Shown here piece by piece: positions 32,089-38,538 of a stretch of 64,000 nucleotides of DNA. The notes beneath the pieces are model-generated. The model saw only the letters and a program-made list of their open reading frames with translations. It was not told where the DNA came from and ran no database searches. A program made the translations under genes and the position numbers. Source of the stretch: Crocinitomicaceae bacterium (lineage in GTDB: Bacteria > Bacteroidota > Bacteroidia > Flavobacteriales_D > Crocinitomicaceae); the NCBI GenBank assembly GCA_002709305.1, contig PAQM01000024.1, forward strand, positions 62,001 through 126,000, given 5' to 3'. Positions within the stretch are counted from its first letter, which is position 1; each line of letters begins with the position of its first letter.

Positions 32089-33327
32089 TTAAGCTAAAAT
32101 TTTTATAGATTTTTTTAACGCTAAAATGAAACTATCGATTTCTTTTTTTGTGTTGTAAAAAGCAAATGATACTCGAATTGTTCCGGGTATTTTAAAGTAA
32201 TCCATTAATGGTTGTGTACAATGATGTCCTGTTCTAACTGCAATGCCCTGTTTGTCTAGTAATGTCCCAATATCAGATGGATGTATATTATTAATAACAA
32301 AAGAAATAACACTTGATTTTTTTTTAGCTTCTCCAATAATGCGAATATCCTTTATTTTTTTTAGTTCTTTTGTTGCATAAGTAGTTAATTCATTTTCATA
32401 ATATTCACTTTTATTTAGATTTATTTTATTTAAATAATCAACAGCAAATCCCAATCCTATTGTTCCCGAAATGTTCGGGGTTCCAGCTTCAAATTTATGC
32501 GGTAATGTATTGTATGTTGTTTTCTTAAAACTTACTTTTTCAATCATATCACCCCCACCTTGATATGGTGGCATTTGATTTAATAGGTTTTTTTTTCCAT
32601 AAAGAACCCCAATTCCAGTAGGACCAAAAATTTTATGACCAGAGAAAACATAAAAATCACAGTCTAATTTTTTGACATCGATTTTCATATGCTGAAGACT
32701 TTGAGCTCCATCAATTAAAACTTTAGCACCAATTTTATGTGCAGAATCAATTATATATTTAATTGGATTAATTGTTCCCAATGTATTCGATATGTGTGAA
32801 ACAGAGACTAATTTTGTTTTTTTATTTAATAAGTTATTAAATTCTGACAGGATTAATTCACCGTTATTATTTATTGGAATAATTTTTAGTTTACAACCTA
32901 TTCTTTTACAAAGCATTTGCCAAGGTACTATGTTTGAATGATGTTCCATCTCAGAAATAATAATTTCATCTTCTTTCGAAATTAATTCTCCAAATGAATA
33001 AGCAATGGTGTTAATTGCATCTGTAGTTCCTTTTGTAAAGATTATCTCTTCAGAAAAACTAGCATTTATATATTCTTTAATTTTTGTTCTAGTTTTTTCG
33101 AACTGATCTGTTGATTCTTGACTTAAGAAGTGAACTCCTCGGTGTATGTTTGAGTTATAAGAAGAGTAATATCTTTTTATCCCATTAATTACCACTTTTG
33201 GTTTTTGAGATGTTGAAGCATTATCAAAATAGATTAAAGGTTTTTCATAAACTTTTGTATGAAGAATAGGAAAATCATTTCTAATTGCCTCGACATCAAA
33301 ACCTTTATATTTCTTATTTATTTTCAT
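32089..33327 (-). CDS. sufS: Cysteine desulfurase SufS
   Basis: 412-residue PLP enzyme that removes sulfur from cysteine for Fe-S cluster assembly. The PLP lysine is in VFSGHKIFGPTGIGV (about residue 230), and the catalytic cysteine is in VRTGHHCTQPLM (about 370). YFDNASTSQKP near the start and EMEHHSNIVPWQ are typical. It heads the operon sufS-sufE-DUF59-fabF; sufB, sufC and sufD are not in the window. A -7 box lies 16 nt before its ATG. Confidence 0.95.
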   Translation of the reverse strand: MKINKKYKGFDVEAIRNDFPILHTKVYEKPLIYFDNASTSQKPKVVINGIKRYYSSYNSNIHRGVHFLSQESTDQFEKTRTKIKEYINASFSEEIIFTKGTTDAINTIAYSFGELISKEDEIIISEMEHHSNIVPWQMLCKRIGCKLKIIPINNNGELILSEFNNLLNKKTKLVSVSHISNTLGTINPIKYIIDSAHKIGAKVLIDGAQSLQHMKIDVKKLDCDFYVFSGHKIFGPTGIGVLYGKKNLLNQMPPYQGGGDMIEKVSFKKTTYNTLPHKFEAGTPNISGTIGLGFAVDYLNKINLNKSEYYENELTTYATKELKKIKDIRIIGEAKKKSSVISFVINNIHPSDIGTLLDKQGIAVRTGHHCTQPLMDYFKIPGTIRVSFAFYNTKKEIDSFILALKKSIKILA

Positions 33328-35459: not shown

Positions 35460-36749
35460 ATGAGTGCAACTGGGAATATAATTCAACGTGTTTTAAAAAG
35501 AGATTCTTCAACTGAATATTTTGATTTACAGAAGATTACAAATGCTATACTGAAGGCAATGACCTCTGTTAATAATGGTGATGTAATTGATGCTGGATGC
35601 GTATCTCAGAGTGTACATGAAACATTGTTAGAGCGTAATCAAAAAATAACAAATTACATCCCAAGTATTGAGGAGATTCAAGATGTTGTGGAACAAAAAC
35701 TAATGCAAAGTGAATTTTTAGATGTAGCTAAAGCATATATCCTTTATAGAAATAATCAGCAACAAAAAAGAAAGAGAAATATTTTTGAAAAAAGAATTAC
35801 TTTGAAACCATATGAATACCCTGAGCTATATGATTATGTTGATGCTATAAGACATTCGTATTGGATTCATTCAGAGTTTAATTTTACTAGTGATATTCAG
35901 GATTTTAAAGCTAAGCTTACAGATGTTGAACGTTCTGCTATTAAGAACACAATGTTAGCTATTTCTCAGATAGAGGTAGCCGTAAAAAGTTTTTGGGGGG
36001 ATATTTATCAAAAAATACCTAAACCAGAGGTTGGATCTGTAGGTGCAACTTTTGGCGAGAGTGAAGTAAGACATGCAGATGCATATTCTCATCTTCTTGA
36101 GATTCTAGGATTGAATAAAGAGTTTCAAACACTTAAGAAGAAGCCTGTTATAATGCGTCGAGTTCAATACCTTGAAACAGCATTGTCAAAATCTAAAAGT
36201 GATGATATACAAGAATATTCTGAATCAGTTTTGCTTTTTTCACTTTTTATAGAGCATGTTTCATTATTTTCTCAATTTTTAATTATTATGGCATTTAATA
36301 AGCATAGGAATATGCTTAAAGGTGTGTCTAATGTGGTTGAAGCAACTTCAAAAGAAGAACAAATTCATGGTGACTTTGGGATTGACTTAATTAAGATTAT
36401 TAAGTTAGAAAACCCAACTTGGTTTGGTGAAAAATATATATCAAGAATACAAGATATGTGTATCAAAGCATTTAAAGCAGAAAGTGAAATAGTTGATTGG
36501 ATCTTTGAGAAAGGAGAATTAGATTTTTTACCTAAAAATCAAGTTATTGAATTTATTAAAGATAGATTTAATCGTTCACTTGATAGTATTGGTGTGGAAA
36601 GTATTTTTGAAACTAATCAAGACTTGTTAAATAAAACTGAGTGGTTTAATGATGAAATTATTGGCACAAAACATGGAGATTTCTTTGTTAAGAGATCAAT
36701 TAATTATAGCAAAAGAACACAGAGTATAACAGCAGATGATCTTTTTTAA
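35460..36749 (+). CDS. nrdB: Ribonucleotide reductase class I small subunit with N-terminal ATP-cone
   Basis: 429-residue radical-generating subunit. Residues 1 to about 100 are an ATP-cone (VLKRDSSTEYFDLQKITNAI, LDVAKAYILYRNNQ), a nucleotide sensor normally found on the large subunit. The R2 core keeps all six metal ligands: Glu172, Glu202, His205, Glu265, Glu300 and His303, and a tyrosine at the radical position (Tyr209). In Leeuwenhoekiella blandensis, NrdB of this design is switched by ATP and dATP through change of oligomer state and uses a manganese centre; that is known for the group and only inferred here. nrdA follows after 1 nt. Confidence 0.92.
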   Translation: MSATGNIIQRVLKRDSSTEYFDLQKITNAILKAMTSVNNGDVIDAGCVSQSVHETLLERNQKITNYIPSIEEIQDVVEQKLMQSEFLDVAKAYILYRNNQQQKRKRNIFEKRITLKPYEYPELYDYVDAIRHSYWIHSEFNFTSDIQDFKAKLTDVERSAIKNTMLAISQIEVAVKSFWGDIYQKIPKPEVGSVGATFGESEVRHADAYSHLLEILGLNKEFQTLKKKPVIMRRVQYLETALSKSKSDDIQEYSESVLLFSLFIEHVSLFSQFLIIMAFNKHRNMLKGVSNVVEATSKEEQIHGDFGIDLIKIIKLENPTWFGEKYISRIQDMCIKAFKAESEIVDWIFEKGELDFLPKNQVIEFIKDRFNRSLDSIGVESIFETNQDLLNKTEWFNDEIIGTKHGDFFVKRSINYSKRTQSITADDLF

Positions 36750-36750
36750 A

Positions 36751-38538
36751 ATGAATGAAACGATAAAAAACATAGACAAAAATAAAGATTTAATTCTCAA
36801 AGAGGATCTTTTAGTAAAAGCCCGAACGGAAAGTTTAAAAGAGCAAAGAGAAAAAGAAAATGACTCTTTTCATTGGTTGACAGACCATAGTAGGCATTTT
36901 TTATCCGCAGGTTATTTACAACCTGGAATTAAGGCTGAAGAAAGGATTCGTGAAATAGGAGATAGGGCAGAAGAGCTTCTAGGTATTAAGGGATATAGTA
37001 ATAAATTTTATAAATATATGTCTGAGGGCTTTTTCTCTTTAGCTTCACCCGTGTGGTCTAATTTTGGTAAGGAGAGAGGTTTACCTATAAGTTGTTTTGG
37101 GTCTAATCTTTCTGATGATATGGGGAATATTTTGTATACTCAATCAGAGGTAGGGATGATGTCAAAACTTGGAGGTGGAACTTCTGGTTATTTCGGAAAT
37201 ATAAGACATAGAGGGGCAGCCGTAAAAAATAATGGTAAAGCATCAGGAGCAGTACATGTTATGCAACTTTTTGAGACTATGGTTGATGTTGTAAGTCAGG
37301 GCTCTGTTCGTCGTGGACGTTTTTCACCATATCTACCTGTTGAACATAATGATATTTCAGAATTTTTAGATATAGGTACAGAAGGTAATCCAATACAAGA
37401 ATTAACACACGGAGTAACCGTAACTGATAATTGGATGGATGATATGATAGCGGGAGATGAAGATAAGAGAAAAATATGGGCAAAAGTTATTCAAAGAAGA
37501 GGGGAAATAGGTTATCCATATATTTTTTTCACAGGTAATGCAAATAGTGGATCTCCTGATGTGTATAAAGATCAAAATCACAAAATTTATGCTAGTAATC
37601 TTTGTACTGAGATAATGCTTCCATCTAATGATAAATGGTCTTTTGTTTGTGTATTATCATCTTTAAATCTATTGCATTATGATAAATGGAAAGATACAGA
37701 TGCAGTAGAAACAATGGTGTATTTTTTAGATGCTGTGATTACTGAATTTTTAACTAAGTTAGAAGTATATAGAGATTCTATTGATCGAGAAGATCAACAA
37801 GTCTTCTTGTTTATGGAACGTGCGTATAATTTTGCGAAAGAAAATCGTTCCTTAGGTTTAGGTGTTCTTGGTTGGCATTCTCTACTACAATCTAAAATGT
37901 TACCTTTTAATAGTCAAGAATCTTATAATTTGAACACAGAAATTTTCAAGTTCATAAAAAATCGTTCTTATAAAGCTTCTGAAGAACTAGCTGAAAAATT
38001 TGGAGAGCCAAATGTTTTAAAAGGTTATGGTAGAAGAAATGCTACTTTAAATGCTATTGCTCCTACAACTTCTTCTGCTTTTATTTTAGGACAAGTTTCA
38101 CAAGGTATTGAACCTATTTGGTCAAATATATATGTTAAAGATATAGCAAAGATTAAGACAACAATTAAGAATCCATTTTTATTAGAATTGCTAGAACAAA
38201 AAGGTCAAAATAATGTTGATGTTTGGCATTCTATAAGAGATCGAGACGGATCTGTTCAACATTTAGATTTTCTTTCAGAAAACGAAAAAAATGTTTTTAA
38301 AACATATTCAGAAATTGATCAAATGGATATTATTTATCAAGCAGGAAATAGGCAAGAATATATTGATCAGGGTCAGTCAGTTAACATTATTGTTCATCCT
38401 GACATGCCAGCTAAAGAAATCAATAAGTTATATATTACAGCTTGGAAATTAGGCTTAAAATCTTTGTATTATCAACATAGTATGAATGCAGCTCAGAAAT
38501 TTAAGCAAAAAAAAGATTGTGTAATGTGTGAGGCATAG
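36751..38538 (+). CDS. nrdA: Ribonucleotide reductase class I large subunit lacking ATP-cone
   Basis: 595-residue catalytic subunit that reduces ribonucleotides. It begins almost directly with the core (HWLTDHSRHFLSAGYLQPG) and has no N-terminal ATP-cone, so it is shorter than the usual 750 or so residues. Redox cysteines are visible in PISCFGSN and SNLCTEIML, the tyrosine pair in LKSLYYQHSM, and the C-terminal thiol shuttle in CVMCEA. ATG 36751 was chosen because it follows the nrdB stop by 1 nt; an in-frame ATG at 36736 lies within nrdB. Activity control would have to come through the ATP-cone on NrdB. Confidence 0.93.
   Translation: MNETIKNIDKNKDLILKEDLLVKARTESLKEQREKENDSFHWLTDHSRHFLSAGYLQPGIKAEERIREIGDRAEELLGIKGYSNKFYKYMSEGFFSLASPVWSNFGKERGLPISCFGSNLSDDMGNILYTQSEVGMMSKLGGGTSGYFGNIRHRGAAVKNNGKASGAVHVMQLFETMVDVVSQGSVRRGRFSPYLPVEHNDISEFLDIGTEGNPIQELTHGVTVTDNWMDDMIAGDEDKRKIWAKVIQRRGEIGYPYIFFTGNANSGSPDVYKDQNHKIYASNLCTEIMLPSNDKWSFVCVLSSLNLLHYDKWKDTDAVETMVYFLDAVITEFLTKLEVYRDSIDREDQQVFLFMERAYNFAKENRSLGLGVLGWHSLLQSKMLPFNSQESYNLNTEIFKFIKNRSYKASEELAEKFGEPNVLKGYGRRNATLNAIAPTTSSAFILGQVSQGIEPIWSNIYVKDIAKIKTTIKNPFLLELLEQKGQNNVDVWHSIRDRDGSVQHLDFLSENEKNVFKTYSEIDQMDIIYQAGNRQEYIDQGQSVNIIVHPDMPAKEINKLYITAWKLGLKSLYYQHSMNAAQKFKQKKDCVMCEA

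Follow-up and report, generated by a model that had tools for sequence, protein, structure and literature searches.

The nrdB-nrdA locus reported here very probably encodes a class Id dimanganese ribonucleotide reductase of the Leeuwenhoekiella blandensis type (NrdAi/NrdBi), in which dATP bound to an ATP-cone on NrdB would lead to inactive beta4 and alpha4beta4 complexes. The initial annotation of the window (the whole 64,000-nucleotide stretch that was analysed), which was made from the letters alone, had the coordinates and the description of the locus right. The finding stands and was interpreted rightly; the arrangement is an unusual but known one. The features concerned are the following.

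35460..36749, + strand: nrdB, probable class Id (NrdBi) radical-generating subunit with an N-terminal ATP-cone, 429 aa (ORF; PF03477 and PF00268; phmmer match to 5OLK, E 1.2e-201)
35487..35762, + strand: ATP-cone domain of NrdB, residues 10-101 (PF03477, E 1.6e-19, 70.7 bits against a cut-off of 25.8)
35793..36617, + strand: R2 ferritin-like core of NrdB with the dimetal site (PF00268, residues 112-386; residue mapping from L. blandensis)
36751..38538, + strand: nrdA, catalytic subunit (NrdE-prime model), 595 aa, no ATP-cone (PF02867; TIGR02510; match to 6DQX, E 3.4e-216)

The uncommon distribution of the cone, which the initial annotation placed ahead of the R2 core of NrdB and found wanting on NrdA, is borne out on both subunits. 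The N-terminal domain of NrdB does match the ATP-cone profile, well over its cut-off, and is followed by the R2 domain (E 2.1e-61), with scores in Pfam that rule out chance as the source of either assignment. A frame error or a mis-joined cone is likewise ruled out, a single open ORF aligning with 5OLK from residue 7 to the end. No N-terminal glutaredoxin domain was found in this NrdB with Pfam. The two genes lie on the same strand in the order nrdB to nrdA, the ATG of nrdA at 36751 sitting just past the nrdB stop (an alternative start, the first ATG, at 36736, would give a 600-aa protein overlapping the end of nrdB). NrdA has the barrel domain (PF02867, E 9.1e-95) and a PF00317 match that stays under the cut-off, and Pfam gives no PF03477 match on it. 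Since the match of its 595-aa form to 6DQX begins at residue 38, which leaves about 37 residues ahead of the core, and a cone takes about 88 positions, there is no room for one. NrdA also exceeds the NCBIfam cut-off for NrdE-prime (TIGR02510, 742.7 bits against 602.25), and its top PDB matches are 6DQX and 6DQW, which we take to be class Id catalytic subunits, just as we take 6CWO, 6CWP and 6CWQ to be the class Id NrdB of Flavobacterium johnsoniae. Counted against our reading is that the NCBIfam beta-subunit models listed for NrdB are all under their curated cut-offs, the best being NF007186 (160.6 bits against 237).

The likeness to L. blandensis that was claimed at the outset is well founded, NrdB (residues 7-429) being 70% identical without gaps to the L. 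blandensis protein (296/423) in 5OLK, its best PDB match (6SF4 and 6SF5, which have the same core letters in the PDB search, were grouped with it). This identity is unevenly spread, 48/96 (50%) in the cone vs 248/327 (76%) in the rest, and the lower conservation of the cone was also counted against our reading.

In the mechanism that we propose, NrdB would carry a dimanganese site, which superoxide or peroxide would, by analogy, oxidise to Mn(III)Mn(IV) with neither an NrdI activase nor a tyrosyl radical. The radical would be passed from NrdB to NrdA, which would reduce ribonucleotides under the control of the specificity site. Activity as a whole would be switched on and off by the N-terminal ATP-cone of NrdB. 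With ATP on the cone, NrdB would form beta2 and an active alpha2beta2; two dATP per cone would link two dimers through their cones into beta4 (and alpha4beta4), blocking the productive complex. The L. blandensis cone is described as holding two nucleotides (PMC5794259), and inhibition is proposed to come about when the cone collides with NrdA and so stands in the way of the asymmetric alpha2beta2 complex (PMC8350387). We infer metal identity, nucleotide binding, oligomers and inhibition from solved relatives, and the dATP-driven NrdB tetramers by homology.

How far the cone itself can be expected to behave as in L. blandensis depends on the residues at the cone-cone contact of the dATP tetramer, for which Asp73, Asp76, Met80, Lys89, Ile92, Ile93 and Arg95 have been named (PMC5794259, excerpt). 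The corresponding positions here are D75, E78, M82, K91, I94, L95 and R97, of which five are identical (D75, M82, K91, I94 and R97). One residue that differs (Ile93, which is Leu95 here) and one that is ambiguous (the 'Asp76' of the paper is a Glu in the solved L. blandensis chain, as is Glu78 here) again count against our reading. Across cone-bearing genome rows, K13, R14, D75, E78, M82, K91, I94 and R97 are invariant in 91/91 (79 loci from the 80 of a named-genome scan, 11 of 20 further loci and the window itself; four rows, with contigs of equal length, appear to be repeats), which points to purifying selection on these eight residues. There is an alternative, which we consider unlikely, in which the cone binds nucleotides but with another stoichiometry or oligomeric outcome than in L. 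blandensis, such as a single ATP on each cone. It draws on the mere half of cone positions shared with L. blandensis and on Facklamia ignava, whose cone has the same position and seems to bind one ATP instead of two (PMC6187632, excerpt), so that details can vary among relatives. Set against it are the five identical contact residues of the seven named and F. ignava NrdB itself, which nevertheless forms beta4 with dATP according to the same excerpt.

The metal site has the residue marks of class Id. Ligands were assigned from the E/D and E-x-x-H pattern in excerpts of the literature together with Glu170, which is named in the L. blandensis papers, and E172, E202, H205, E265, E300 and H303 are all present, as is Y209, in agreement with the initial annotation. 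The positions map onto L. blandensis throughout (Glu170 to E172, Lys174 to K176, Trp177 to W179, Tyr207 to Y209, Glu263 to E265 and Thr294 to T296), with the E-x-x-H motifs at 200 and 298 there and at 202 and 300 here. According to an excerpt of PMC6754362, NrdBi proteins are marked by Glu rather than Asp as first ligand and by a conserved Trp, and the studied NrdBi subgroup by a Lys three residues upstream of that Trp. This NrdB has the Glu as first N-terminal ligand (E172, the equivalent of Glu170), and it has W179 and K176, which are the same in 91/91 of the cone-bearing genome rows. Its partner is a minimal catalytic subunit with no PF03477 match and a TIGR02510 score above cut-off, as in class Id. 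The features of class Ib (NrdE/NrdF) are not seen, with no NrdI found and TIGR04171 (NrdF) at 47.1 bits on NrdB against a cut-off of 355. NrdI (PF07972) has 0 matches in the window's own genome, the control registering in 3 of 14 genomes (Escherichia coli, Bacillus subtilis and Lactococcus lactis), and NrdR also has 0, the control registering in 9 of 14. A missing NrdI gene is compatible with NrdI independence, of which it is no proof.

The initial annotation called the metal centre of interest, as all ligands and a tyrosine at the radical position are kept. A Tyr at that position does not imply a Tyr radical, being no radical carrier in the relatives that have been studied, and the metal centre is no puzzle. 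The competing view is that of class Ia and Ib, with a tyrosyl radical on Tyr209 beside two iron or two manganese ions. In its favour, the Tyr follows the first E-x-x-H motif at its canonical position. This view seems very improbable in the face of the signature residues E172, K176 and W179 and of the lack of a detectable NrdI in the genome. Moreover, the counterparts of Tyr209 and Thr296 in L. blandensis form a pair that keeps the Tyr away from the metals, the excerpts placing the Tyr hydroxyl about 6 A from the ligand Glu170 (PMC5794259) and the Tyr, bonded to Thr, 7.6 A from Mn1 (PMC6754362). EPR of F. ignava NrdB found Mn2(IV,III) and no tyrosyl radical (PMC6754362, excerpt). With the Tyr far from the metals in L. 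blandensis and no radical on it in F. ignava, Tyr209 should not be a radical site and would be normal for the subclass, as it is no radical site in its studied members. That the cone is vestigial, degenerate and devoid of regulation, is hardly credible, since a conservation that is lower than in the core and a second, cone-bearing class I enzyme in the genome are set against 70.7 bits, far over the family cut-off, and eight cone residues that are the same in every row checked.

That second enzyme is found on contig C22 (L002, L003 and L129), where a cone-bearing NrdA frame of 788 aa (cone, 57.7 bits) adjoins a 324-aa NrdB. The genome therefore has two class I enzymes with cones on opposite subunits, the window NrdB and the C22 NrdA. 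The C22 layout is also present in 3/4 of the other genomes of the genus (G149, G153 and G187), so it looks like the inherited enzyme. The NrdB cone is no recent copy of its cone, the match between the two being faint (22 residues at 50% identity, E 0.016 with 11 sequences in the set). Contig C9 (L004) carries a third NrdB, in DNA of 61-62% GC against 29-31% in the window; this NrdB is eukaryote-like by our own reading and probably a bin contaminant.

Among 199 genomes of the order, 16 have a cone-covering NrdB match, the window's own included and the other 15 at 69-80% identity (one of the 16, G034, has a stop inside nrdB). Cone-less NrdB occurs in 8 of the 199, at 41-47% identity (with stops inside in G026). 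These eight (L133-L140) all have the Glu, Lys and Trp marks and group together in trees, as six sequences in a quick tree (60 of 124 rows) and as five in a careful tree (35 rows). Within the genus, none of the 4 other genomes has NrdBi, so the locus is patchy, either lost in them or gained here. That the window contig is foreign to its genome was considered and is not supported, as judged from one neighbouring ORF (32089-33327), an aminotransferase-like frame that by our own reading is a putative SufS-like cysteine desulfurase. Its three best matches outside its own genome are from the same genus (68, 66 and 65%), followed by another genus of the family (65%) and then the fourth genus member (66%). 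In the family, 55 of 60 genomes have a cone match, in an NrdB-size frame (425-443 aa) in 4 genomes, in a 179-aa frame in a fifth and for the most part otherwise in frames of 775-825 aa, the size of NrdA. A further kind of match, of 21.5-35.5 bits, was seen in family genomes (G136, G106, G175, G118 and others) in frames of 278-301 aa, which are too small for a reductase large subunit; no such small, low-scoring cone frame was found in the window's own genome. In the named-genome scan, which confirmed 456 stretches, the matches of the best 80 begin at query residue 11 or earlier without exception (80/80), and so include the cone. As a separate observation, NrdB and NrdA share one 1042-aa frame at L044:4860-7985, where the NrdB tail is garbled and homopolymers differ at the junction, which points to a sequencing frameshift and no real fusion.

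Among 43 viral loci, the 24 of sufficient completeness were scored: 4 have a cone (L086, L091, L092 and L106) and 20 have none (L087-L090, L093-L105, L107, L108 and L111). Two of the cone-less ones, L087 and L089, are 70-71% identical. The quick tree puts them next to the cone-bearing clade of bacteria (SH-aLRT 90); the careful tree gives them no resolved position. Helicase and Holliday-resolvase phage families are found on L087, and a terminase on L090, a 71% relative. As to whether viruses lost the cone or gained it separately, each tree needs 3 changes of cone state, a single clade of all cone-bearing rows is not rejected in the careful tree (AU p 0.093), and both trees are weakened by long branches (L140, L141 and L092 in the quick one, L092 and L139 in the careful one). 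One might tentatively picture the cone as a mobile switch that phages of these bacteria keep or drop, with two host class I reductases under one dATP signal. Were that so, (i) cone-less phage NrdBi close to the host form (~70%) could escape dATP shut-off, (ii) other phages would retain a divergent cone and (iii) the two host reductases, one with its cone on NrdA and the other on NrdB, would operate in parallel.

Several viral NrdB (L114:4977-6719, L118:3720-5693 and L122:1183-2904, with their relatives L112 and L117) have an insert just before the first E-x-x-H metal motif, which starts with Cys and ends with Asn followed by Ser, exists in short and longer forms and, by eye, reads as intein-like. 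In L112 and L117 there is a stop within it. A group I intron was considered for these nrdB genes and set aside, with no Rfam match in the 5 loci. Elsewhere, a viral NrdA of 889 aa (L086:6274-8943) has by eye an intein-like insert immediately ahead of the Cys in its N-x-C-x-E motif, and the viral contig L109 has inverted nrdB-nrdA copies, one per strand, likely an assembly artefact.

With this locus, a documented architecture in which an allosteric domain has moved between two non-homologous subunits of one enzyme gains a further genome. The chief use of the locus is for annotation, in that a cone-bearing NrdB should not be named class Ia. The viral NrdB, some with and some without the cone and some with an insertion like an intein at the metal site, would form a natural series for the value of the cone to a virus.

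Set beside known systems, the locus is closest to L. blandensis NrdAi/NrdBi (5OLK; PMC5794259), which in the excerpt has the same N-terminal cone on NrdB and likewise lacks one on NrdA. Shared too are the positions of the ligand, Lys, Trp, Tyr and Thr and five of the seven named cone-cone contact residues, the differences being the half-identical cone and the one Ile to Leu exchange. A further difference is that L. blandensis has a class II enzyme besides, according to the excerpt, whereas the other enzyme found here is class I with its cone on NrdA. F. ignava NrdBi (PMC6187632, excerpt), for which Mn(III)Mn(IV) is reported, shares the cone on NrdB and an nrdA downstream of nrdB, but has an N-terminal glutaredoxin domain. 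The class Id NrdB of F. johnsoniae has the same R2 core match and class Id signatures, but no added domains as far as the excerpt of PMC6754362 goes. Meiothermus NrdF also bears a cone on the radical-generating subunit, but in subclass Ib and at the opposite, C-terminal end (PMC5794259, excerpt). The same 2018 eLife paper counts 93 RefSeq NrdBi with cones, 70 of them from Flavobacteriales, and notes viral ones. Architecture, structure and dATP mechanism are already in the literature for a protein of 70% identity, and the cofactor has been described both for that protein and for a homologue.
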